Source of the DNA: Chloroflexus aurantiacus J-10-fl
GTDB lineage: Bacteria > Chloroflexota > Chloroflexia > Chloroflexales > Chloroflexaceae
Direction: 5' to 3'
NCBI RefSeq assembly: GCF_000018865.1
Contig: NC_010175.1
Coordinates: 2,790,001-2,854,000, forward strand
Length of the DNA stretch: 64,000 nt
Shown: one piece after another, positions 51,442-63,930 of the stretch
How the letters are laid out: every line of letters starts with the position of its first letter
How positions within the stretch are numbered: the first letter of the stretch is position 1
Translations under genes and position numbers: made by a program
The notes under the pieces: generated by a model
The model's input: only the letters and a program-made list of their open reading frames with translations
Told to the model about the DNA's origin: nothing
The model's database searches: none

Positions 51442-54400
51442 ATGATGGGATCGCGACGGATTACACTCGATGGCAATGAAGCGGTTGCGAATGTTGCCTA
51501 TCAACTGAGTGAAGTTATAGCAATTTATCCGATAACTCCTTCGACCCCGATGGGTGAACAGGCCGATGCCTTTGCCGCCACCGGTAAACCTAATCTGTGG
51601 GGTGTGGTGCCCACTGTTTACGAGATGCAATCAGAGGGTGGGGCTGCCGGTGCACTGCACGGTGCGATGCAGACCGGTGCGTTGACTACGACGTTTACGG
51701 CATCGCAGGGCTTGTTGTTGATGATCCCGAACCTGTTCAAGATGGCGGCTGAGATGACCCCCGGTGTCTTCCATGTGGCTGCCCGGGCCATCGCGACGCA
51801 GGGGTTGTCAATCTTTGGTGATCATTCCGACGTGATGGCAGCACGGGCGACCGGCGTGGGTATGCTGGCCTCGGCTTCGGTGCAAGAGGCACACGATCTG
51901 GCCCTGATTGCCCACGCCAGTTCGCTGGCCGGGAAGTTGCCGGTGATCCACTTCTTCGACGGATTTCGCACCTCGCACGAGGTGAATACAATCATTGCGC
52001 TTGAGGATGACGAAATCCGGGCAATGATTAAAGATGAGTGGGTTCATGATCAGCGTGCGCATGCGCTGTCGCCAGAACATCCGGTCATTCGCGGTACCGC
52101 GCAGAATCCCGATGTGGCGTTTCAAGCCCGCGAGCGTATCCAGCCAATCCTTGACGCCTTCCCCGCCGTCGTGCAAGCGCAGATGGATCGCTTCGCCAGT
52201 ATCACCGGTCGGCAGTATCACCTCTTCGACTATTTCGGTGCGCCTGATGCCGAGCGGGTGATTGTCGTGATGGGTTCGGGTGGTGAGACAGCTCGTGAGA
52301 CTGCCTTTTATCTTAATCAACAGGGGGAGAAGGTTGGGGTGGTACAGGTTCGGCTCTTCCGTCCGTTTGCAGAGGCCGCATTCCGCGCCGTACTGCCGCC
52401 AACGGTGAGAGCGATTGCCGTGCTTGACCGCACTAAAGAACCGGGAGCTGCCGGTGAGCCGCTCTTCCTCGATGTCGTTGCCGCTCTGCGCGGGCAGCCG
52501 ATCACGATCATCGGTGGCCGCTATGGTCTGTCGTCGAAGGAGTTCACGCCAGGGATGGCGGCAGCAGTGTTTGCCGAGTTGAACAAGCCCCAACCGAAAG
52601 CGCACTTTACCGTCGGTATCATCGACGATGTGAGCAACAGTAGCCTTGAATATGATCCAGACCTCTGCATCGATCCGCCGGGCACCGTCCGTTGTGTGTT
52701 CTGGGGGCTGGGTTCTGATGGTACCGTCGGCGCAAACAAGAATAGTATCAAGATCATCGGTGATAGTAGCGAAGGTGATGCCGAACGTTACGCGCAGGGC
52801 TATTTCGTCTACGACTCGAAGAAATCGGGGTCGGTAACCATTTCACACCTGCGCTTCGGCCCATCCCCATTGGCAACACCCTACCTGATCGGCAAGGGTC
52901 AGGCGCAATTCGTCGCCTGCCATCAGTTTAGCTTCCTCGAACGGTTTGATGTGTTGCAGTATGCAGCGCCTGGGGGAGTGTTCTTGCTGAATAGCCCCTA
53001 CGGCCCGGATCAGGTCTGGCATCAGTTACCGTCGGTAGTGCAACGCAAGATTCGCGATCTGAAGCTACGTTTCTATGTGATTGATGCCACCGCTGTCGCC
53101 AATGAAGTCGGCATGCGTGGACGCATCAATACCGTGATGCAGACCTGTTTCTTCGCCATTAGCGGTGTGCTGCCGCGCGATGAGGCGATTGCTGCAATCA
53201 AACAGGCTATCAAGAAGACATACGGTCGGCGCGGCGATACAGTGGTACGGCAGAACTGGGCAGCCGTGGATCGCACCCTTGATCGTCTCTACGAAGTGCC
53301 CATTCCACCGCCGACTGAAGATAACGGTCTGGCGATGCGGCCTCCGGTACCGGCCAACGCCCCCGCATTTGTACGGGATGTCCTGGGCGCGATGATTGCC
53401 GGTCGCGGTGATGAGTTGCCGGTAAGCGCAATTCCAATCGACGGTTCGTTCCCCACCGGGACAACCAAATGGGAGAAGCGTAATATCGCGCTCGAAATAC
53501 CGGTCTGGGATCCGAATATCTGTATCCAATGCAACAAATGCGTCTTCGTCTGCCCGCACGCGACGATTCGGGCGAAGGTGTACCCTGAAGAGGCACTCGC
53601 CGGCGCTCCTGAAGGCTTCCTGAGCGCACCGGCCCGCTTCAAAGAGTTTCCCGGTCAGCGTTACACTTTGCAGGTCGCACCCGAAGATTGTACCGGTTGT
53701 GGCCTCTGCGTTGAAGCCTGTCCGGTGAAAGACAAGCGGGCTGTCGGTCGCAAGGCAATCAATCTCCAACCACAAGCCCCCATTCGCGCACGCGAGGCGA
53801 CGTACTGGGACTTCTTCCTCTCGCTACCTGACGTTGACCGCACGCAGATCCCGATGGGCAGCGTGAAGCACACGCAGTTGTTTGTGCCGCTGATGGAGTT
53901 TTCCGGCGCATGCGCCGGCTGTGGCGAGACCCCCTATCTCAAGTTGTTGAGCCAGCTCTTCGGTGATCGGGCGATTATTGCGAACGCGACCGGCTGCTCG
54001 TCGATCTACGGTGGGAACTTGCCGACCACCCCCTGGACGACCAACGCCGAGGGGCGGGGGCCGGCCTGGTGTAACTCGCTCTTTGAGGATAACGGTGAGT
54101 TTGGGCTGGGGATGCGGTTGAGCATCGATCAGCAACTCGCGCACGCGCAGATGCTGCTTCAGCGGTTACGGCCATTGCTCGGTGCTGAGTTTGTCGAGGA
54201 CTTGCTCAATGCCGATCAGCGCACAGAAGCCGGTATTCGTGAACAGCGTGAACGGGTAGCCATCCTCAAGCAGCGTCTAACTGAGCTGTTGCAGGATAAT
54301 CCGCCAGAAGCACCACAGATGCGTGATCTGCTGGCGCTGGCCGATGTGCTGATCCGACGCAGTATCTGGATTGTGGGTGGTGATGGCTGGGCCTACGACA

Positions 54401-56204: not shown

Positions 56205-56254
56205 TTGACAACCACCCGTCGTATGTCTATACTTCATTCCATCAAGCGATTGAT
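56205..56254 (+). promoter_or_regulatory. strong promoter with palindromic operator, upstream of tetR
   Basis: TTGACA (56205-56210), exact 17-base spacer, TATACT (56228-56233). ATCAAGCGATTGAT (56241-56254), a symmetric ATCAA-N4-TTGAT, lies at the start of transcription. This is the usual place for TetR autorepression. Confidence 0.75.
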
Positions 56255-56394: not shown

Positions 56395-57069
56395 ATGATG
56401 CATGAAAGTCAGACTGAAGCCGGTGGGAGTGCTGAGCGTATTCTCGCTGCCGCCGCGGCACTCTTCGCCAGTTATGGCTATCACGGCATGTCGATGCGTG
56501 CGCTGGCCGCAGCCGTAGGTTTGAATATCGCAACCATTCACTACCACGTCGGTAGCAAGCTCGATCTCTACCGGAGCGTTTTTCGACGGTTAGCCGAACG
56601 CGAACAGGCAGTGATTACCGCCCATATTGGTGACATTCCACCAGCGCTCATCTCTGATCCGGTAGCGCTCCAACAGCGGCTCAATGATCTGATTGACGCG
56701 CTGGTTGATCTTACGCTGACCCATCCCGAAATGCCGCGCCTCTGGCTGCGGCGCTGGCTCGAACAGGATGATTCGCCGGGTGCGCTGGAAGCTGAGGTCT
56801 CGGCACCGCTTTATACGCTGGTGCTTGATCTCTTGCAGCGTGCGCAGGCTGCCGGCTCTATTGCGCCAACGCCTGATCTGCGCCTCATCCTCCATAGCTT
56901 TACCTGGATACTCTACGGCTACTTTGCCGGTGGGCCACTCGATCCGACCGGTCTGCGACTTGATCCTGCCGACCCGGAGCGGGTGGCCGCCTTCAAGCAA
57001 TTTTTGCACCTTTACACGGCCAGGTTGCTGGGCTTTCCCGATCCATCAGAACCCGGCAATAGCACATAA
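56395..57069 (+). CDS. TetR family transcriptional regulator
   Basis: Ligand-responsive repressor, 224 residues. The DNA-binding part (about 13-62) reads SAERILAAAAALFASYGYHGMSMRALAAAVGLNIATIHYHVGSKLDLYRSVF; the rest is the helical ligand domain, including a hydrophobic end (LRLILHSFTWILYGYFAGG). AGGAG precedes the ATG ATG start. It heads a five-gene plus-strand group (transporter, PLP lyase, SDR-ThDP fusion, peptidase), 27 bases before the transporter. The ligand is probably the substrate of that pathway. Confidence 0.93.
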   Translation: MMHESQTEAGGSAERILAAAAALFASYGYHGMSMRALAAAVGLNIATIHYHVGSKLDLYRSVFRRLAEREQAVITAHIGDIPPALISDPVALQQRLNDLIDALVDLTLTHPEMPRLWLRRWLEQDDSPGALEAEVSAPLYTLVLDLLQRAQAAGSIAPTPDLRLILHSFTWILYGYFAGGPLDPTGLRLDPADPERVAAFKQFLHLYTARLLGFPDPSEPGNST

Positions 57070-57096: not shown

Positions 57097-58434
57097 ATGA
57101 GTCGGCTGCTGCGCTACATCACGTATTCGATGGGCAATTTTGCCAACACAATTGCCTACCAGGTCTTCGGTAATCGGATTCAGTTCTACTATGTGGATGT
57201 GTTAGGGCTAAGTGCCGCTACTGCCGGTATTATCTGGACAATCTACGGTTTGTGGAATGCGATTAATGACCCCTTGATGGGGCAGTTATCCGACCGCACG
57301 CGCACACCAATGGGACGGCGTGTGCCGTATGTCGTCTTTGGCGCAGTGCCGCTCGGCCTCTCATTCTTTTTTCTCTGGACACCGCCGGGGCAGTCACCCT
57401 GGTTGTTAGCCGCCTATTTTCTCATCATTCTGTTCATCTTCGATACCCTCTACAGCCTGACCATTATCGCCTACAATTCGCTCTTTCCTGAAGTAGCCCC
57501 TAATTTACGCGAACGGATCAATCTGTCGGCAACCCGTGAGGTGTTGGCGACCATTGCCCTTCTGCTGTCGTTTATTCTGGCGCCGATTCTGGCCGAGACG
57601 GTGGGCTACATCTGGATGGGGGCAATCATGGGAACGCTGGTAGGGGTGGGCTACCTGATCGCAATGATTGGGGTGCGTGAAGCTCCGGTGCAGCATGACG
57701 GTCAGCAGGTACATCTGCTCACCGCGTTGCGGATTACGCTCGCCAGTCGACCGTTTCGCTGGTTTATTGGCGCGAACATCGCCAAAGAGTATGTCTGGCT
57801 GGCACTGGCTGCTATGCTCCCATTCTGGCGCAAATATGCGCTGGGTATTCAGGGGCCTATCGAAGTGGCCGGTATCCGGCTGAGCGCTGGCGATGCAGAA
57901 GCGATTCTGCTGGGAGTGCCGATTTTGCTCACCATTCCGATGCTGCTGGCCTGGCGACCACTGGTCACCCGGATCGGGCCGCGGCGCGCCTGGATGATTA
58001 CCAGTCTCTGCTTTATTCCCGGTTTTGTGATGATGATGCTGGCAACCGATTTTGTCTCCGGCCTGATGGGCACACTGCTGGTGGTGCCAGGGCTTGCCGG
58101 TTCGATGTTGATGCCGTTTCCGCTGATCTCCGAGGTGATCGATGACGACGCGGCTCGCCATGGTGTACGCCGGGAAGGTATCTTCTTCGGGATGAATGGT
58201 GGGATTACCAAACTGGCCTTCTCGGCGCAAGGGGTGCTCTTTGCGAGTGTGCTGTCGCTGGCCGGCTATGTCGCCGGGAGTGATCTGCAAACTCCTGGCG
58301 CCATTTGGGGCATTCGTTTTCTGATCGGTGGCACGACAATTATCGCCGCCTTGATCATCGTCTTTTGTATGTGGAAGTATCCGTTGGAGCGAGCGCCGAA
58401 AGCGGCATTGGCGCCGGAAAGGGTTGTGTCGTGA
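57097..58434 (+). CDS. GPH-family (MelB/MFSD2-like) cation symporter
   Basis: 445 residues with about 12 membrane helices. The N-terminus YITYSMGNFANTIAYQVF and the loop YGLWNAINDPLMGQLSDRTRTPMGRRVPYV are diagnostic of the glycoside-pentoside-hexuronide:cation symporter family. Members carry sugars, but MFSD2 homologues carry lysolipids and sphingosine 1-phosphate. Its stop overlaps the GTG start of the PLP lyase by 4 bases, so transport and lyase are expressed in fixed ratio. Confidence 0.9.
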   Translation: MSRLLRYITYSMGNFANTIAYQVFGNRIQFYYVDVLGLSAATAGIIWTIYGLWNAINDPLMGQLSDRTRTPMGRRVPYVVFGAVPLGLSFFFLWTPPGQSPWLLAAYFLIILFIFDTLYSLTIIAYNSLFPEVAPNLRERINLSATREVLATIALLLSFILAPILAETVGYIWMGAIMGTLVGVGYLIAMIGVREAPVQHDGQQVHLLTALRITLASRPFRWFIGANIAKEYVWLALAAMLPFWRKYALGIQGPIEVAGIRLSAGDAEAILLGVPILLTIPMLLAWRPLVTRIGPRRAWMITSLCFIPGFVMMMLATDFVSGLMGTLLVVPGLAGSMLMPFPLISEVIDDDAARHGVRREGIFFGMNGGITKLAFSAQGVLFASVLSLAGYVAGSDLQTPGAIWGIRFLIGGTTIIAALIIVFCMWKYPLERAPKAALAPERVVS

Positions 58435-59855
58435 GTTTTCCTGCTACAGGAATGGCTCCAGCCGAAATTCTGAGCGCACTACAGCGCTTTAAAATGGCCG
58501 ATCTCGATTGGCAACACGGTCGGGTGTGGGCGTATGTCTATCAACCAGATGCAGCGGCAACCGATCTCATGCAACAGGCGTATCTCCATTATCTGACCGA
58601 GAATTGCCTTGATCCCACCACCTTTCCCAGCACCGCTCACCTCGAACAGGAAGTGGTGCGGATGGTTGCCGATCTGCTCGGTGGTGATGAAGAGACGTGC
58701 GGGAATGTGACATCAGGTGGGACTGAGAGTATTCTGCTCGCGGTCAAGACGGCTCGTGACTGGGCACGCCACCAGCGGCCAGGGATTGATCAACCCGAAA
58801 TGGTGCTCTCGCGTACTGCCCATGCCGCTTTTCACAAAGCGGCGCACTATCTGGGCGTCAAGCCGGTCGTGGTTGATTTTGACCCGCTAACCTTCGCGGC
58901 TGATGTGGCGGCGATGCGGGCCGCGATTAACGAGCGTACCATTATGCTGGTGGCGTCAGCGCCTTCGTATGCCCAGGGTGCGCTCGATCCGGTGGCCGAC
59001 ATCGCAGCACTTGCCCAGGAATACGGCCTGCTTTGCCACGTTGATGCCTGTGTTGGTGGGATGTATCTGCCGTTTCTACGTCAGTTGGGTCGTGAGATTC
59101 CGCCCTTCGATCTGAGTGTGCCGGGGGTGACATCGCTTTCGGTTGATTTGCACAAGTATGGCTACGCCGCCAAAGGGGCATCGGTCATTCTCTACCGCCA
59201 TCGTGCGTTGCGCCGCTATCAGTTGTTTGCTTCGACCGATACCACAGCCTATACGGTCATCAACCCAACGGTGCTCAGTTCTCGTTCGGCGGGGCCGCTG
59301 GCGGCGGCCTGGGCACTTTTGCGTTACCTCGGTGCCGTCGGCTATCGTCAGATCGTGGCGGTTGTCCAGGACGCCACCGACCGTCTGATTGCCGGGATTG
59401 CGGCAATTCCCGATCTTCAGGTGCTGGGTCAACCGGTGATGAGTATGGTGGCTGTGGCCTCACCAACCATCAACGTCTTTCAACTGGCCGATGCGATGCG
59501 TCGGCGTGGATGGTATGTTCAGCCGCAATTGTCAGCTCCACACTCGCCACGTAACATCCATTTCTCGGTTTCGTATGGGGTAGCTGGCTACGTTGATGCA
59601 CTGCTCGCCGATCTTGCAGCCTGCGTTGCCGAGGTGCGCCACTGGCCGCCGGTTGACCGCAATCTGGTTGAGATGGCCGTTCGTTCGCTGACCGTTGATC
59701 ATTCTCCGTCCGCTGTACAACAGCTCTGGCAGGCCATCGGGTTGGCTGAAGGCCGGTTACCGACCGATATGGCTCTGATTAACGAAGTGCTCGATGCGCT
59801 GCCCGATGCGATTGCCAATGAACTAGTGATTGATGTCTTCAATGCGCTGTTTTAG
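58431..59855 (+). CDS. PLP-dependent lyase/decarboxylase, sphingosine-1-phosphate-lyase-like
   Basis: Fold type I PLP enzyme of 474 residues. PLP lysine Lys242 in SVDLHKYGYAAKGASVILYR; cofactor contacts NVTSGGTESILLAVKTARDW, AHAAFHKAAHYL and VDACVGGMYLPFL. The HKYGYAxKG motif is closer to S1P lyases than to glutamate decarboxylase. Known members split a phosphorylated amino alcohol into an aldehyde and phosphoethanolamine, or decarboxylate amino acids. GTG 58431 is chosen: SFPATGMAPAEIL fits the family start, GGAAAGGG lies upstream, and it makes a 4-base overlap with the transporter. There is no membrane anchor. Confidence 0.88.
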   Translation: MSFPATGMAPAEILSALQRFKMADLDWQHGRVWAYVYQPDAAATDLMQQAYLHYLTENCLDPTTFPSTAHLEQEVVRMVADLLGGDEETCGNVTSGGTESILLAVKTARDWARHQRPGIDQPEMVLSRTAHAAFHKAAHYLGVKPVVVDFDPLTFAADVAAMRAAINERTIMLVASAPSYAQGALDPVADIAALAQEYGLLCHVDACVGGMYLPFLRQLGREIPPFDLSVPGVTSLSVDLHKYGYAAKGASVILYRHRALRRYQLFASTDTTAYTVINPTVLSSRSAGPLAAAWALLRYLGAVGYRQIVAVVQDATDRLIAGIAAIPDLQVLGQPVMSMVAVASPTINVFQLADAMRRRGWYVQPQLSAPHSPRNIHFSVSYGVAGYVDALLADLAACVAEVRHWPPVDRNLVEMAVRSLTVDHSPSAVQQLWQAIGLAEGRLPTDMALINEVLDALPDAIANELVIDVFNALF

Positions 59856-59949: not shown

Positions 59950-62484
59950 ATGACGGCGACAATCTCTCGACGAGTCTGGTTGATCACCGGTGCCGGAGGT
60001 GGTTTTGGGCGCAGCCTCGTGCGACAGCTTCTCGAACGTGGCGAGTATGTCGCTGCTGCCGACCGTAGCCTCGAACTGCTCGCCGCGCTACCTTCCTCAG
60101 AAGACGGATGTCTGTTTCCGGTTGCTATCGATCTTACCGATCCGATGACCATCCAGGCTGGTGTGGCAGCGGTGATCGACCGGTTTGGACGGATCGATGT
60201 GCTGGTGAATAACGCCGGTCTGGGTCACGGTGGCCCGCTCGAAGAGGTGTCATTGACCGACATCCGGCGCCTGTTCGATGTCAATATCATCGGGATGATG
60301 CTGATCACGCAGGCTGTCTTGCCGGTGATGCGGGCGGCTGGGGGTGGGCGGATTATCAATCTTTCATCGGATAGCGGGGTCATCGGCTTCCCGTTTCAAG
60401 GTCTCTACACTGCAACCAAGCATGCAGTGGAAGGTTTTTCCGACAGTCTGTATCAAGAGGTGGCTCCGTTCGGCATCCACGTCTCGGTCGTTCAACCCTG
60501 TGGGATGTTCAAGACGGCGATGCCGGCGAATGCGATTGCCCAGGCCCGTTCAGCGCTGAAACCTGATAGTCCCTACGCTGATCGTGTCTTACGAATGGCG
60601 TCTGCCCTATCCGCTGCCTGGGAGACAGCGCGTGATCCCGCTGAAGTTGCCCAGGCCATTCTCGACGTTGCCGATGCCGATCCGCCACCGATTCGTCGGC
60701 GAGTTGGCGCTCCTGAGCGTACCGGCTTGCTGGGTCTGCGTCAGCAGATGAGTCACGATGATCTGGTACGGTTTATCTACCGGCTGACAGCCGAACCAAC
60801 GCCACCACCGTTGCCGAAAGTGCGCGGTGATGGTGGCTGGCTGGTGGTACGCACATTGCGGGAAGCGGGTATCACCCATGCCTTCACCATTGTTGGTGGT
60901 CACAACTATCAGATCGTCAATGCCTGTCGTGAAGAGGGCTTGTGTGTCATCGATGCCCGCAACGAAATGCATGCCGCCCATATGGCCGATGCGTTTGCCC
61001 GACTGGCGCGTCGTCCTGCCTTGCTCACCGTTGATGCTGCGCCGGGGTTGGTGAATGCGGTGGCCGGGATCGAGGTAGCTTATGAAGCGCAGGTGCCGAT
61101 GATTGTCGTTTCGGCGCAGGGTTCACTGGCCGGACGGGATATTGGAGTCATGCAGGCGATTGACCAGCTCCGGCTCGTGCGCCCGATCACAAAATGGCAA
61201 CGCACCTGCTTCGAGACCAGGCGCCTACCCGAATACACGGCTGCTGCCATCAGACATGCAACTACCGGTCGGCCTGGGCCGACCTTTCTGGACTTTCCAC
61301 TTGAGGTGATGCAGGCGACCATTGATGTTGAGACCGTCCCTCAACCGCGTCACTATCGGGTGACGAGCGGCCCGCTGGCCGATCCCGACTTGCTCCGGCA
61401 GGTGATCGAGATGCTACGCAAGGCACGTCGGCCCCTGATTATTGCCGGCAGCGGGGTCTGGTGGGCGCACGGCGAAGCCGAACTCGTTCGCTTTGTCCAG
61501 ACAACCGGCATTCCGGTGTTGACGCGCAACCTGGCACGCGGCATCATCCCTGACGATCATCCGCTGGCAGCCGGCTTTTACCCGTCTCCCGCCGCCCTGG
61601 CCGACGCCTTTCTGGTTATCGGCACCCGGCTCGATTGGACAATCGGTTATGGACGACCGCCGCTCTTCTCGCCTGATGCACCGGTAGCCCAGATTGATCT
61701 CCATCCCGAAAGTATCGGCAAGACACGACCGATTGAGATCGGAATTGTCGCCGATGCGGCGCAGGCACTGCGGCAATTGAACGCAATGGTGTCGGCAACC
61801 GGGCCGTGGACAATGGATGCAGAATGGCCGGCGCTGGCGCACGGTAGTATCGCTGCAATGCGCCAGCAAACGGCTGCTGCGGCCCAATTATCAACCCGCG
61901 ATCAACGACCAATCCATTCGATTGAACTGATGCAGGCGCTGGCCGAATGCCTTCCCCGCGAAGCGATCAAGGTTGTCGATGGCGGTTACAGTGCAGCCTT
62001 CGCCATCCAATACCTCGACGCTTACGTCCCCAGCGGCGTGCTGTGGGTTGGCAGTACCGGACATCTCGGCGTCGGCTTAGGCTTTGCTATCGGGGCCAAA
62101 CGGGCCAGACCCGATGCACCGGTGGTGGCAATTATGGGTGATGGTGCCTTTGGTCTCTGTGGGATGGAGTTTGATACCGCGGTACGCCACCAGTTGCCGA
62201 TTGTGGTAGTCGTCGCCAACGATGCCGGTTGGGGTGAAACGCGCGACGGTCAGCGACGACGGTGGGGAGACGCAGCCATCGTCGGCACAGCGCTCAATCC
62301 AACCCGCTACGATGAACTGGCCCGTGCTCTCGGCGGGCACGGCGAATATGTCACGCGCCTCGACGAACTGGCGCCGGCTATACGGCGCGCTTTTGCAGCG
62401 GGAAAACCGGCATTGATCAACGTCATCACCGATCCCGAACAACGCAGCAGTGCCGTCAGCGGTCTGCCGTGGATTGTAGAGTAG
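59950..62484 (+). CDS. fusion of short-chain dehydrogenase and ThDP-dependent 2-hydroxyacyl-CoA-lyase/oxalyl-CoA-decarboxylase-like enzyme
   Basis: 844 residues, two enzymes in one chain. Residues 1-280 are a classical SDR: TGAGGGFG at 13-20, VNNAG, and the catalytic YTATK with Tyr153 and Lys157. Residues 285-844 are a complete ThDP enzyme: pyrimidine-domain Glu339 in DARNEMHAAHMADAF, the middle domain with GRPPLFSPDAPVAQIDLHPE (style of oxalyl-CoA decarboxylase and HACL), and the diphosphate motif GDGAFG at 730-735 with a downstream Asn in VANDAGWG. No frameshift or internal start explains it, and the linker TPPPLPKVRGDGG is short. AGGAAGGGG precedes the ATG. The aldehyde from one half may feed the other. 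Confidence 0.9.
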   Translation: MTATISRRVWLITGAGGGFGRSLVRQLLERGEYVAAADRSLELLAALPSSEDGCLFPVAIDLTDPMTIQAGVAAVIDRFGRIDVLVNNAGLGHGGPLEEVSLTDIRRLFDVNIIGMMLITQAVLPVMRAAGGGRIINLSSDSGVIGFPFQGLYTATKHAVEGFSDSLYQEVAPFGIHVSVVQPCGMFKTAMPANAIAQARSALKPDSPYADRVLRMASALSAAWETARDPAEVAQAILDVADADPPPIRRRVGAPERTGLLGLRQQMSHDDLVRFIYRLTAEPTPPPLPKVRGDGGWLVVRTLREAGITHAFTIVGGHNYQIVNACREEGLCVIDARNEMHAAHMADAFARLARRPALLTVDAAPGLVNAVAGIEVAYEAQVPMIVVSAQGSLAGRDIGVMQAIDQLRLVRPITKWQRTCFETRRLPEYTAAAIRHATTGRPGPTFLDFPLEVMQATIDVETVPQPRHYRVTSGPLADPDLLRQVIEMLRKARRPLIIAGSGVWWAHGEAELVRFVQTTGIPVLTRNLARGIIPDDHPLAAGFYPSPAALADAFLVIGTRLDWTIGYGRPPLFSPDAPVAQIDLHPESIGKTRPIEIGIVADAAQALRQLNAMVSATGPWTMDAEWPALAHGSIAAMRQQTAAAAQLSTRDQRPIHSIELMQALAECLPREAIKVVDGGYSAAFAIQYLDAYVPSGVLWVGSTGHLGVGLGFAIGAKRARPDAPVVAIMGDGAFGLCGMEFDTAVRHQLPIVVVVANDAGWGETRDGQRRRWGDAAIVGTALNPTRYDELARALGGHGEYVTRLDELAPAIRRAFAAGKPALINVITDPEQRSSAVSGLPWIVE

Positions 62485-62538: not shown

Positions 62539-63930
62539 ATGACCCCGGTGGCCGCTGCATTAAGTTATCTTACGGAACATCGTGATCAACATCTGTCTGC
62601 ACTGTACGAATTGCTCAGCATCCCCAGTGTAAGCATGGATCCGGCCCACCGGGCCGATATGGTGCGAGCCGCTGAATGGCTGGCAACCTGCCTGCGGCAC
62701 ATTGGGATGCACCACACCGAAATTGTCGCCGACCACGGGCTGCCACTGGTCTACAGCGAATGGCTTGGTGCCGAACAGGCGCCAACGCTGCTCATCTACG
62801 GCCATTACGATGTACAGCCTGCCGACCCGGTAGCTGAATGGCATACACCACCCTTTACACCCTCGCTGGTCGGTGAGAACCTCTATGCTCGCGGCGCATC
62901 CGATGACAAGGGCCAGGTGATGGCCGTGATCTTTGCCCTGGCTTCCTGGCTCCAGACCAGCGGTCGTTTGCCGGTTAACGTTAAATTGATCATCGAGGGC
63001 GAAGAAGAAGTTTCGAGTACGCTGCTTCATCGTTTCGTGGCCGATCAGGCAGAACGGCTGCGTTGTGATGCGGTGTTGCTGGTGGATTCGATGATGCTCA
63101 GCCCACAACAACCACTCATCCTCTACGGCACAAGGGGCAATTGTTATCTGGAAGTGACTGTGCGTGGCCCAAAGACCGATCTCCACTCCGGTACCTTTGG
63201 CGGTGTGGTGGATAATCCGTTCAACGTGCTGGTGCGCCTGCTTGCCGCACTGCAAGATGGTGATACACGCCGGGTTCGGGTACCGGGGTTTTACGAGAAA
63301 GTGTGCATCGTTGATGACGAAGAGCGAGCGTTTATCAATCGCCTACCGGTGAGTGATGCGGTATTGCAGGCGCTGACCGGTGTGCCGGCGCTGGCCGGAG
63401 AAGAGGGCTTTACACCGCTTGAGCGGGCGAGTATCAGGCCAACCTTTGATATCCACGGCATCAGTGGCGGTTTCACGGGGCCGGGCAAAAAGACGGTGAT
63501 CCCGGCTCAGGCCAGGGCCAAACTCTCGATGCGTCTGGTACCACATCAAGACCCGGTTGAAATTGGTGAACTGGTGCGGAACTTCTTACAGCAGCAGGCA
63601 CCATCAACCGTGCAGGTATCGGTAGAGGTATTGAGTGCATCGTGGCCGGTGCTGGTTGATTATCGTCATCCGACGGTGCAGGTGGCTTCAACAGCCTTCG
63701 CAAAGGCATTTGGGCGACCGGCGGCCTTCTCAATTGGCGGAGGCACGCTGCCAATTGCGGCAACCTTCCAGAAACACCTGCAAGCGCCGCTCGTCATTAC
63801 CGGCTTTGGCCTGCCTGACGACAACCTGCACGCGCCGAATGAAAAGATATTTCTGCCCTGCCTGTTTGGCGGCAGTGCAATGATCATTCACTATCTGGCC
63901 GAACTGGCAGATGCGTATGTCTTAAGATAA
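62539..63930 (+). CDS. M20 family metallopeptidase (dipeptidase type)
   Basis: 463 residues. Zinc ligands in the M20 pattern: His89 in IYGHYDVQP, Asp122-Asp123 in ASDDKG, and the IIEGEEEVSS glutamates; a dimerisation domain lies at about 190-340 and GGGTLPIA near the end. GHYDVQP points to the CNDP/cytosolic dipeptidase branch rather than ArgE or DapE. No signal peptide. It follows the fusion gene by 54 bases with AAGGAGG before the ATG, so likely the same operon. It might free an amino-acid moiety from the pathway substrate. The stop codon lies inside a dispersed repeat. Confidence 0.92.
   Translation: MTPVAAALSYLTEHRDQHLSALYELLSIPSVSMDPAHRADMVRAAEWLATCLRHIGMHHTEIVADHGLPLVYSEWLGAEQAPTLLIYGHYDVQPADPVAEWHTPPFTPSLVGENLYARGASDDKGQVMAVIFALASWLQTSGRLPVNVKLIIEGEEEVSSTLLHRFVADQAERLRCDAVLLVDSMMLSPQQPLILYGTRGNCYLEVTVRGPKTDLHSGTFGGVVDNPFNVLVRLLAALQDGDTRRVRVPGFYEKVCIVDDEERAFINRLPVSDAVLQALTGVPALAGEEGFTPLERASIRPTFDIHGISGGFTGPGKKTVIPAQARAKLSMRLVPHQDPVEIGELVRNFLQQQAPSTVQVSVEVLSASWPVLVDYRHPTVQVASTAFAKAFGRPAAFSIGGGTLPIAATFQKHLQAPLVITGFGLPDDNLHAPNEKIFLPCLFGGSAMIIHYLAELADAYVLR

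Follow-up and report, generated by a model that had tools for sequence, protein, structure and literature searches.

What does a dehydrogenase gain by sharing a polypeptide with a thiamine diphosphate (ThDP) enzyme? The question is raised by a gene at 59950..62484, on the forward strand of a 64,000-nucleotide stretch of the genome of the thermophilic phototroph Chloroflexus aurantiacus J-10-fl (NC_010175.1, positions 2,790,001 to 2,854,000; hereafter the window). The gene starts with ATG and runs as one unbroken frame of 844 residues, as the first-pass annotation, made from the sequence alone, had described. Residues 1-280 (59950..60789) form a short-chain dehydrogenase/reductase (SDR), about residues 281-292 (60790..60825) a proline-rich linker defined by orthologue alignment, and residues 293-844 (60826..62481) a ThDP enzyme, all on the forward strand. 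Pfam finds adh_short at 9-195 (168 bits), TPP_enzyme_N at 295-408 (90 bits), TPP_enzyme_M at 483-610 (114 bits) and TPP_enzyme_C at 677-825 (120 bits), all four scores far above the curated cut-offs and in the order first proposed. Both halves were also correctly described as complete: TGAGGGFG begins at residue 13 and a YTATK stretch gives Tyr153 and Lys157, while NEMHAAHM at 338 gives Glu339 and GDG stands at 730-732. The worry that one half might have lost cofactor binding finds no support, as the predicted cofactor and catalytic residues are kept in both. Judged by its domains and motifs, the product is a genuine single chain of two complete enzymes, SDR then ThDP, and it brings together two enzyme families, each already known, in a single-chain order that is new.

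The first-pass annotation knew of no characterised enzyme with this architecture. We found no published description of one, nor any paper on the fusion or its presumed locus tag, in searches of open-licence PubMed Central (PMC) papers, subscription papers being outside their scope. The tag would be Caur_2085, counting onward from Caur_2080 and Caur_2081, which PMC3150298 gives as pyruvate:ferredoxin oxidoreductase and dihydroorotate oxidase/dehydrogenase; the window genes at 51442 and 55020 fit these two.

A misassembly, or an open frame that spans two genes by chance, would give the same picture, and two relatives do carry a stop and a new start near the same place in the linker region. However, the same unbroken frame recurs in three of the 82 genomes of the order: the window's own, a Chloroflexus metagenome-assembled genome (MAG; G002, locus L012) whose fusion is 83% identical, and a Roseiflexus-type genome on one contig (G030) with 74% identity. 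They come from two families, and two are single-contig. Because full-length, stop-free matches exist in two further genomes, neither chance nor a local assembly fault can account for the gene; misassembly is ruled out, and we give artefact next to no probability. Nei-Gojobori dN/dS against the 83% relative is 0.07 in the SDR half, 0.09 across a 37-codon junction and 0.06 in the ThDP half; against the 74% relative it is 0.15, 0.28 and 0.07, all rough figures since dS, at 1.4-2.0, is near saturation. Both halves appear to be under purifying selection, and the fusion is real and kept by selection.

The first-pass annotation had been ready to give up the fusion if close relatives encoded the halves separately and the junction proved an assembly error. 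The separate halves exist: G013 and G019, both from the family to which the window belongs, encode the SDR and ThDP enzymes as adjacent genes, in the same order and 50-61% identical. The assembly error does not, as the three fused genomes show. Since split and fused forms both occur, we can regard the two enzymes as partners with a measure of confidence. A tree of the ThDP enzymes places the Roseiflexus-type fusion together with those of Chloroflexus (100/99) and away from the split genes found in the window's family, which suggests a single fusion event followed by transfer between lineages.

The other genomes of the order add little. One Roseiflexus MAG of the 82 (G354) has a rearranged gene with only the last 386 residues, and the remaining 76 gave no match at 1e-100 or only a ThDP relative of 37-39% identity (G032, G425). 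A 400-genome draw of the phylum, in which the two best candidates per genome were scored, contained the fusion in two (the window's own and G030), and a scan of genome contigs with six 8-residue patterns returned three loci, one fused (L012), one rearranged (L013) and one fragmentary (L014). As the pattern scan reaches close relatives only and the draw scored two candidates per genome, absence from other groups is not established. Plasmids had no fusion at E 1e-40 (none of 166 matching records had one place covering 80% of the query), and among viral contigs none of 37 candidate stretches contained a relative of the ThDP half, while three relatives of the SDR half turned up in 57. In the rearranged Roseiflexus gene (L046:6884-8215, the same as L013:5827-7158) the retained residues are in frame with a short unrelated stretch, possibly DUF4143-like by eye; the cause is a misjoin in the MAG or else a genuine deletion. 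The fragment (L014:5559-5834), 92 residues 88% identical to the ThDP half on a Caldilineales MAG contig with unrelated neighbours, is probably misassembled.

The SDR half is of the classical type, with TGxxxGxG at 13-20 and an Asn112-Ser140-Tyr153-Lys157 tetrad. The tetrad, Thr13, Gly14, Gly18, Gly20 and Asp38 are invariant in all five orthologues (three fusions and two split pairs). An acidic residue after the second strand of an SDR marks NAD preference, and Asp38 at the end of that strand suggests, although Arg39 follows it, that this half is NAD-type. The closest solved structure, the classical SDR 3m1a (3.7e-40, residues 6-256 aligned), is entered as a putative dehydrogenase with no substrate name.

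The ThDP half has the PYR-middle-PP organisation, with TPP_enzyme_N/M/C, Glu339, GDG at 730-732 and Asn757. These residues and Gln402 are invariant in the five orthologues, and the C-terminus has its own conserved tail, QRSxAVxGxPWIVE. Its best structure matches are 2-hydroxyacyl-CoA lyases of the HACL/S group (8vzk, 5.5e-91), with benzaldehyde lyase (BAL) lower in the list. Of 260 NCBIfam models matched, 25 were listed, and it scored under the cut-off of every one of those: 393 bits against 587 for PRK05858, an 'acetolactate synthase' and the nearest named model among those listed, 311 against 600 for HACL and 297 against 557 for oxalyl-CoA decarboxylase (OXC). The Roseiflexus-type fusion (390) and a split form (364) are also under the PRK05858 cut-off, as are two HACL2-like proteins (L016, 486; L010, 513). 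The middle domain had been likened to OXC or HACL at first; this is only loosely right, because the domain found, PF00205, is shared across the ThDP family and the HACL and OXC scores are under their cut-offs.

The phylogeny to which the first-pass annotation had looked for a class assignment settles part of the matter. In a maximum-likelihood tree of 39 of 48 rows, nine relatives judged similar to others having been dropped, the five orthologues form a clade by themselves (100/100, stem 0.76). It is excluded both from the group of OXC and HACL/S enzymes that includes RuHACL (100/100) and from AHAS, Gcl and PoxB. Tree and motifs together rule out membership of the OXC/HACL1-type group, and the tree rules out a true acetolactate synthase. 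The fusion clade meets BAL, a haloarchaeal protein, L033 and an 18-row HACL2-like clade at a fork of unsettled order. PoxB, BAL, human HACL2, Gcl and the haloarchaeal row are on long branches, so their exact places are unsure, and the human HACL2 row is a provisional sequence, checked by Glu557 and its expected length only. The tree draws on relatives given a locus, 27 of the places from the 400-genome draw, and leaves out the own-genome paralogues in L002 and L004 (no tblastn match), the partial copies L013, L014 and L015, and the ThDP enzymes of L086 and L115.

The active site sharpens the comparison. According to PMC11271303, R260 and R400 of ApbHACL/S contact the acyl-CoA, R156 and R276 contact its ADP, and the active-site loop reads G-I-P. 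We mapped these through PDB 8vzc with an offset of 3, which puts all four published arginines on Arg, although Ile32 and Glu117 mismatch that row. By this alignment the ADP arginines are kept as R441 and R560 in the fusion, while R260 and R400 are replaced by Pro545 and Ile686. Of the 27 OXC/HACL, HACL2-like and NN-type rows, 25 have Arg in the R260 column, where all five orthologues have Pro; the R400 position alone says little, because RuHACL itself has Leu there. Without the arginine by which HACL/S enzymes contact CoA, the fusion probably acts on something other than an acyl-CoA. The 2-hydroxyacyl-CoA substrate suggested by the first-pass annotation is thus disfavoured both by that residue and by the place of the ThDP half outside the OXC/HACL1-type clade. 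The loop is G316-G317-H318, against G-[IF]-P in five of five HACL/OXC rows. The printed 8vzc alignment ends at 540, short of the HACL/S lid residues R545, K546, Q548 and W552. According to PMC8760513, Glu493 of AcHACL and, by proposal, Glu557 of human HACL2 are acid/base residues; their positions are Thr764 (Ile in the split genes) and Gly767 in the fusion, with Glu763 and Asp766 one residue earlier.

Of the known ThDP systems, three come nearest to the fusion. The HACL/S enzymes and OXC (8vzk, 8vzc, 6xn8; E. coli Oxc) are three-domain enzymes of 30-35% identity that have the ThDP glutamate and the ADP-site arginines in common with it, and the HACL/S rows the active-site Gln, but they differ in the loop, the acyl-CoA arginines and their clade. 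Human HACL2 (ILVBL), 31% identical to the ThDP half in the provisional copy, and the bacterial HACL2-like or PRK05858 proteins share motifs with it: GGH is present in 18 of 18 HACL2-like rows and an N-D-x-x-W motif in most, and the equivalent of Gln402 also occurs in HACL2-like rows. The fusion differs in scoring under the PRK05858 cut-off, in having no counterpart of the Arg found in 16 of the 18 rows, in its Gly at the Glu557 position and in being joined to an SDR. Benzaldehyde lyase (2ag0) is a ThDP lyase/ligase for CoA-free acyloins. It has in common with the fusion an IDQ...PITKW stretch and has no Arg at the CoA position either; it differs in its low identity (29.5%), its long branch of uncertain relationship and its lack of an SDR. 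On a Streptomyces plasmid (L103:5070-7995), a ThDP gene that falls with the HACL2-like rows in the tree is directly followed by a gene annotated as formyl-CoA transferase, which hints that this branch may handle formyl-CoA.

The fusion is the fourth of five genes that all run in one direction in the window, on the forward strand. It is preceded by a TetR-family regulator (56395..57069; Pfam TetR_N 8e-12), an MFS_2 (GPH-type) transporter (57097..58434; Pfam MFS_2 1.2e-71) and a pyridoxal phosphate (PLP) enzyme of the sphingosine-1-phosphate lyase (SPL) type (58431..59855) whose GTG start overlaps the transporter stop codon, and is followed by an M20-family dipeptidase-like hydrolase (62539..63930; NCBIfam PRK08201 502 bits, cut-off 441). 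The stretch AGGAAGGGG lies upstream of the fusion start at 59950. About 160 bases before the TetR gene is a promoter-like site, TTGACA-17-TATACT (56205..56233, forward strand, matching 11/12), which by its position is a candidate operon promoter; seven such sites were found, with 3.7 expected by chance. Three terminator-like sites were found against 6.6 expected by chance, all of them within coding regions.

This order is kept in three genomes (the window, L048 and L043), and L046 is the same except for its broken fusion gene. TetR heads the cluster in L048, L043, L046, L044 and L045; MFS_2 orthologues 82-89% identical hold the same place in L043, L046, L048, L088 and L089; the M20 orthologue follows in those five loci and, in two frames, in L044. 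In the split genomes TetR, a different MFS transporter, SDR and ThDP stand in a row, with M20 (two frames) next in G013, whereas the G019 contig ends after the SDR-ThDP pair. No acyl-CoA synthetase, CoA transferase or kinase was found by Pfam and NCBIfam in the conserved five-gene cluster. In two Chloroflexus loci (L088:6550-11470 and L089:1675-6135) that have the MFS_2, SPL-like and M20 genes in the same arrangement but no fusion, TetR is fragmented or incomplete, as if it had decayed once the fusion was lost. Elsewhere (L109:5192-7962 and L110:1989-7974) an MFS_2 gene, 67-71% identical to the window's, lies near an SPL-like gene with the same altered pocket as the window's, with no SDR or ThDP match near the pair; this is perhaps the older core of the cluster.

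The PLP neighbour gives a second view of the substrate. It matches StSPL (3mad) at 2e-96, against only 1e-30 for the archaeal tyrosine decarboxylase MfnA; the match ends at residue 421 of 486. From the residue table of PMC6148460 we took 13 SPL positions, of which A103, Y105, N126, H129 and K317 form the substrate-phosphate pocket. The enzyme keeps 11 of the 13, including the catalytic residues (Lys311, His310, His201, Cys276, Asp274, Asn126, Tyr105 and Lys317 among the kept equivalents), but the phosphate pocket is changed, with Tyr for A103 and Asp for H129. Across 26 rows this pair is Tyr/Asp in 11 (six of the cluster and five relatives, L107-L111), Gly/Tyr in four, Leu/Asn in five and Ala/His in five short paralogues of the same order and StSPL. 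Elsewhere in the site, Ser353 is Thr in eight rows and Tyr105 is Phe in three, the other nine positions being constant. The two positions do vary, as a published Burkholderia SPL has Thr and Gln there (PMC6148460). The changed pair makes it probable that the cluster's enzyme takes a head group unlike that of SPL. More widely, four pocket types (A/H, Y/D, G/Y and L/N) among Chloroflexota SPL-like enzymes (L043, L046, L048, L086, L088-L098, L107-L115) suggest several substrate classes under one annotation.

SPL-like and ThDP genes also meet in distant Chloroflexota. In one locus (L086:258-6026) a zinc-type alcohol dehydrogenase and an ATG22-like MFS transporter stand between an SPL-like gene and a ThDP enzyme; in another (L115:6158-9751) a broken SPL-like gene, in two frames, is convergent with a ThDP gene that shares 53.5% identity with its L086 counterpart. 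These ThDP enzymes probably belong to another branch, because the best NCBIfam models for that of L086 are acetolactate synthases, below cut-off. Two differently built sets, one of them also with a dehydrogenase, give some support to a functional link.

The reading we tentatively favour, though with a little under half of our confidence, is that the fusion is a bifunctional enzyme of a catabolic operon, whose SDR and ThDP lyase (or ligase) would act in consecutive steps on a CoA-free alpha-hydroxycarbonyl. A CoA-free substrate is preferred because the CoA arginine is missing and the conserved cluster holds no CoA-activating enzyme. ThDP chemistry requires a carbonyl beside the bond to be cut, and an SDR is the usual route to it from a carbinol. 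The transporter would import an amine-bearing compound, the M20 enzyme would free the amine, and the PLP enzyme would split the amine compound in retro-aldol fashion to leave an aldehyde. The fusion would then finish the carbon chain: the presumably NAD-type SDR half would interconvert alcohol and ketone beside a hydroxyl or carbonyl, and the ThDP half would attack the resulting alpha-hydroxycarbonyl (an acyloin or 2-hydroxyaldehyde) and cleave the carbon-carbon bond to give two carbonyl products. Fusion would fix the two activities at 1:1 for consecutive steps, and we would expect cleavage rather than ligation.

Several observations weigh against this reading. In the split genomes the PLP gene is not beside the SDR/ThDP pair, and their SPL-like genes elsewhere (L090 and L091) have the other pocket type, Gly/Tyr. 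Two Chloroflexus genomes (G005 and G007) have MFS_2, the PLP enzyme and M20 where they would be expected, and a decayed TetR, but lack the fusion gene, so that cluster does not depend on it; fusion and PLP enzyme often co-occur, neither needing the other. When the surroundings of 20 ThDP relatives were searched by tblastn, an SPL-like gene was found in one (L086), an SDR-like gene in three (L079, L081 and L087) and neither in 16. Among SPL-like loci away from the cluster of the fusion genomes, a ThDP gene was near none of the 11 in L088-L098 and only one (L115) of the nine in L107-L115. The GGH loop of human HACL2, in the provisional copy, and that enzyme's role in alpha-oxidation mean that losing one arginine contact is no proof against CoA binding. 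Neither Thr764 nor Gly767, which stand where AcHACL and human HACL2 have their named or proposed acid/base residue for lyase chemistry, is acidic. A structure prediction from two sequences was of unusable quality (mean pLDDT 42.7, pTM 0.34).

The strongest competitor, which we consider rather unlikely, keeps the CoA: a HACL2-like 2-hydroxyacyl-CoA lyase, with the SDR reducing the aldehyde or making the substrate, would serve alpha-oxidation of hydroxylated fatty or sphingoid chains. The HACL/S structure matches, the GGH loop and NDAGW motif in common with the provisional human HACL2 sequence, and the adjoining SPL-like gene all fit this, as does the activity of human HACL2 in fatty acid alpha-oxidation reported in PMC12655727. 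It is harder to square with Pro545 and Ile686, with the absence of an acid at either proposed catalytic position, with a clade separate from both the OXC/HACL1-type and the HACL2-like rows, and with a cluster that carries no acyl-CoA synthetase or CoA transferase.

Running the chemistry in the joining direction would make the fusion a biosynthetic diol synthase, the ThDP half condensing two carbonyls to an acyloin that the SDR would reduce to a vicinal diol. Such enzymes are reversible, benzaldehyde lyase belongs to the same wider group, the PDB matches include an entry named formolase, and the nearest named model, whose cut-off the protein does not reach, is an acetolactate synthase. We nevertheless think it distinctly improbable, as TetR, a symporter-family transporter and an M20 hydrolase look catabolic and the tree sets the ThDP half well apart from IlvB, the E. 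coli acetolactate synthase. Less probable again is ordinary breakdown of sphingoid-base 1-phosphates by a true SPL, followed by an aldehyde-processing fusion. The StSPL match and its kept catalytic residues are what this would predict, but the residue table weakens it: two of the five phosphate-pocket positions are changed in 11 rows, while five short paralogues of the same order keep Ala/His, and the conserved cluster has no kinase.

The CoA-free reading that we favour can be carried one speculative and rather doubtful step further. The cluster may encode an undescribed route that imports an unphosphorylated amino alcohol, either long-chain or aromatic, and breaks it down with no use of CoA. 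A modified SPL would remove the amine end to give an aldehyde, and the fusion, as one channelled protein, would oxidise the carbinol and split the alpha-hydroxycarbonyl, a CoA-free counterpart of alpha-oxidation.

What the fused genes point to is consecutive steps, carried out in part by a ThDP branch that scores under the named models set against it, and the neighbouring SPL-like enzyme with its changed pocket offers a second handle on the substrate. There is demand for ThDP enzymes of the wider group in one-carbon and acyloin chemistry. Knowing the substrate would put a name to a catabolic pathway of thermophilic Chloroflexota and would provide a ready-made, probably heat-stable, two-step carbon-carbon lyase/dehydrogenase.

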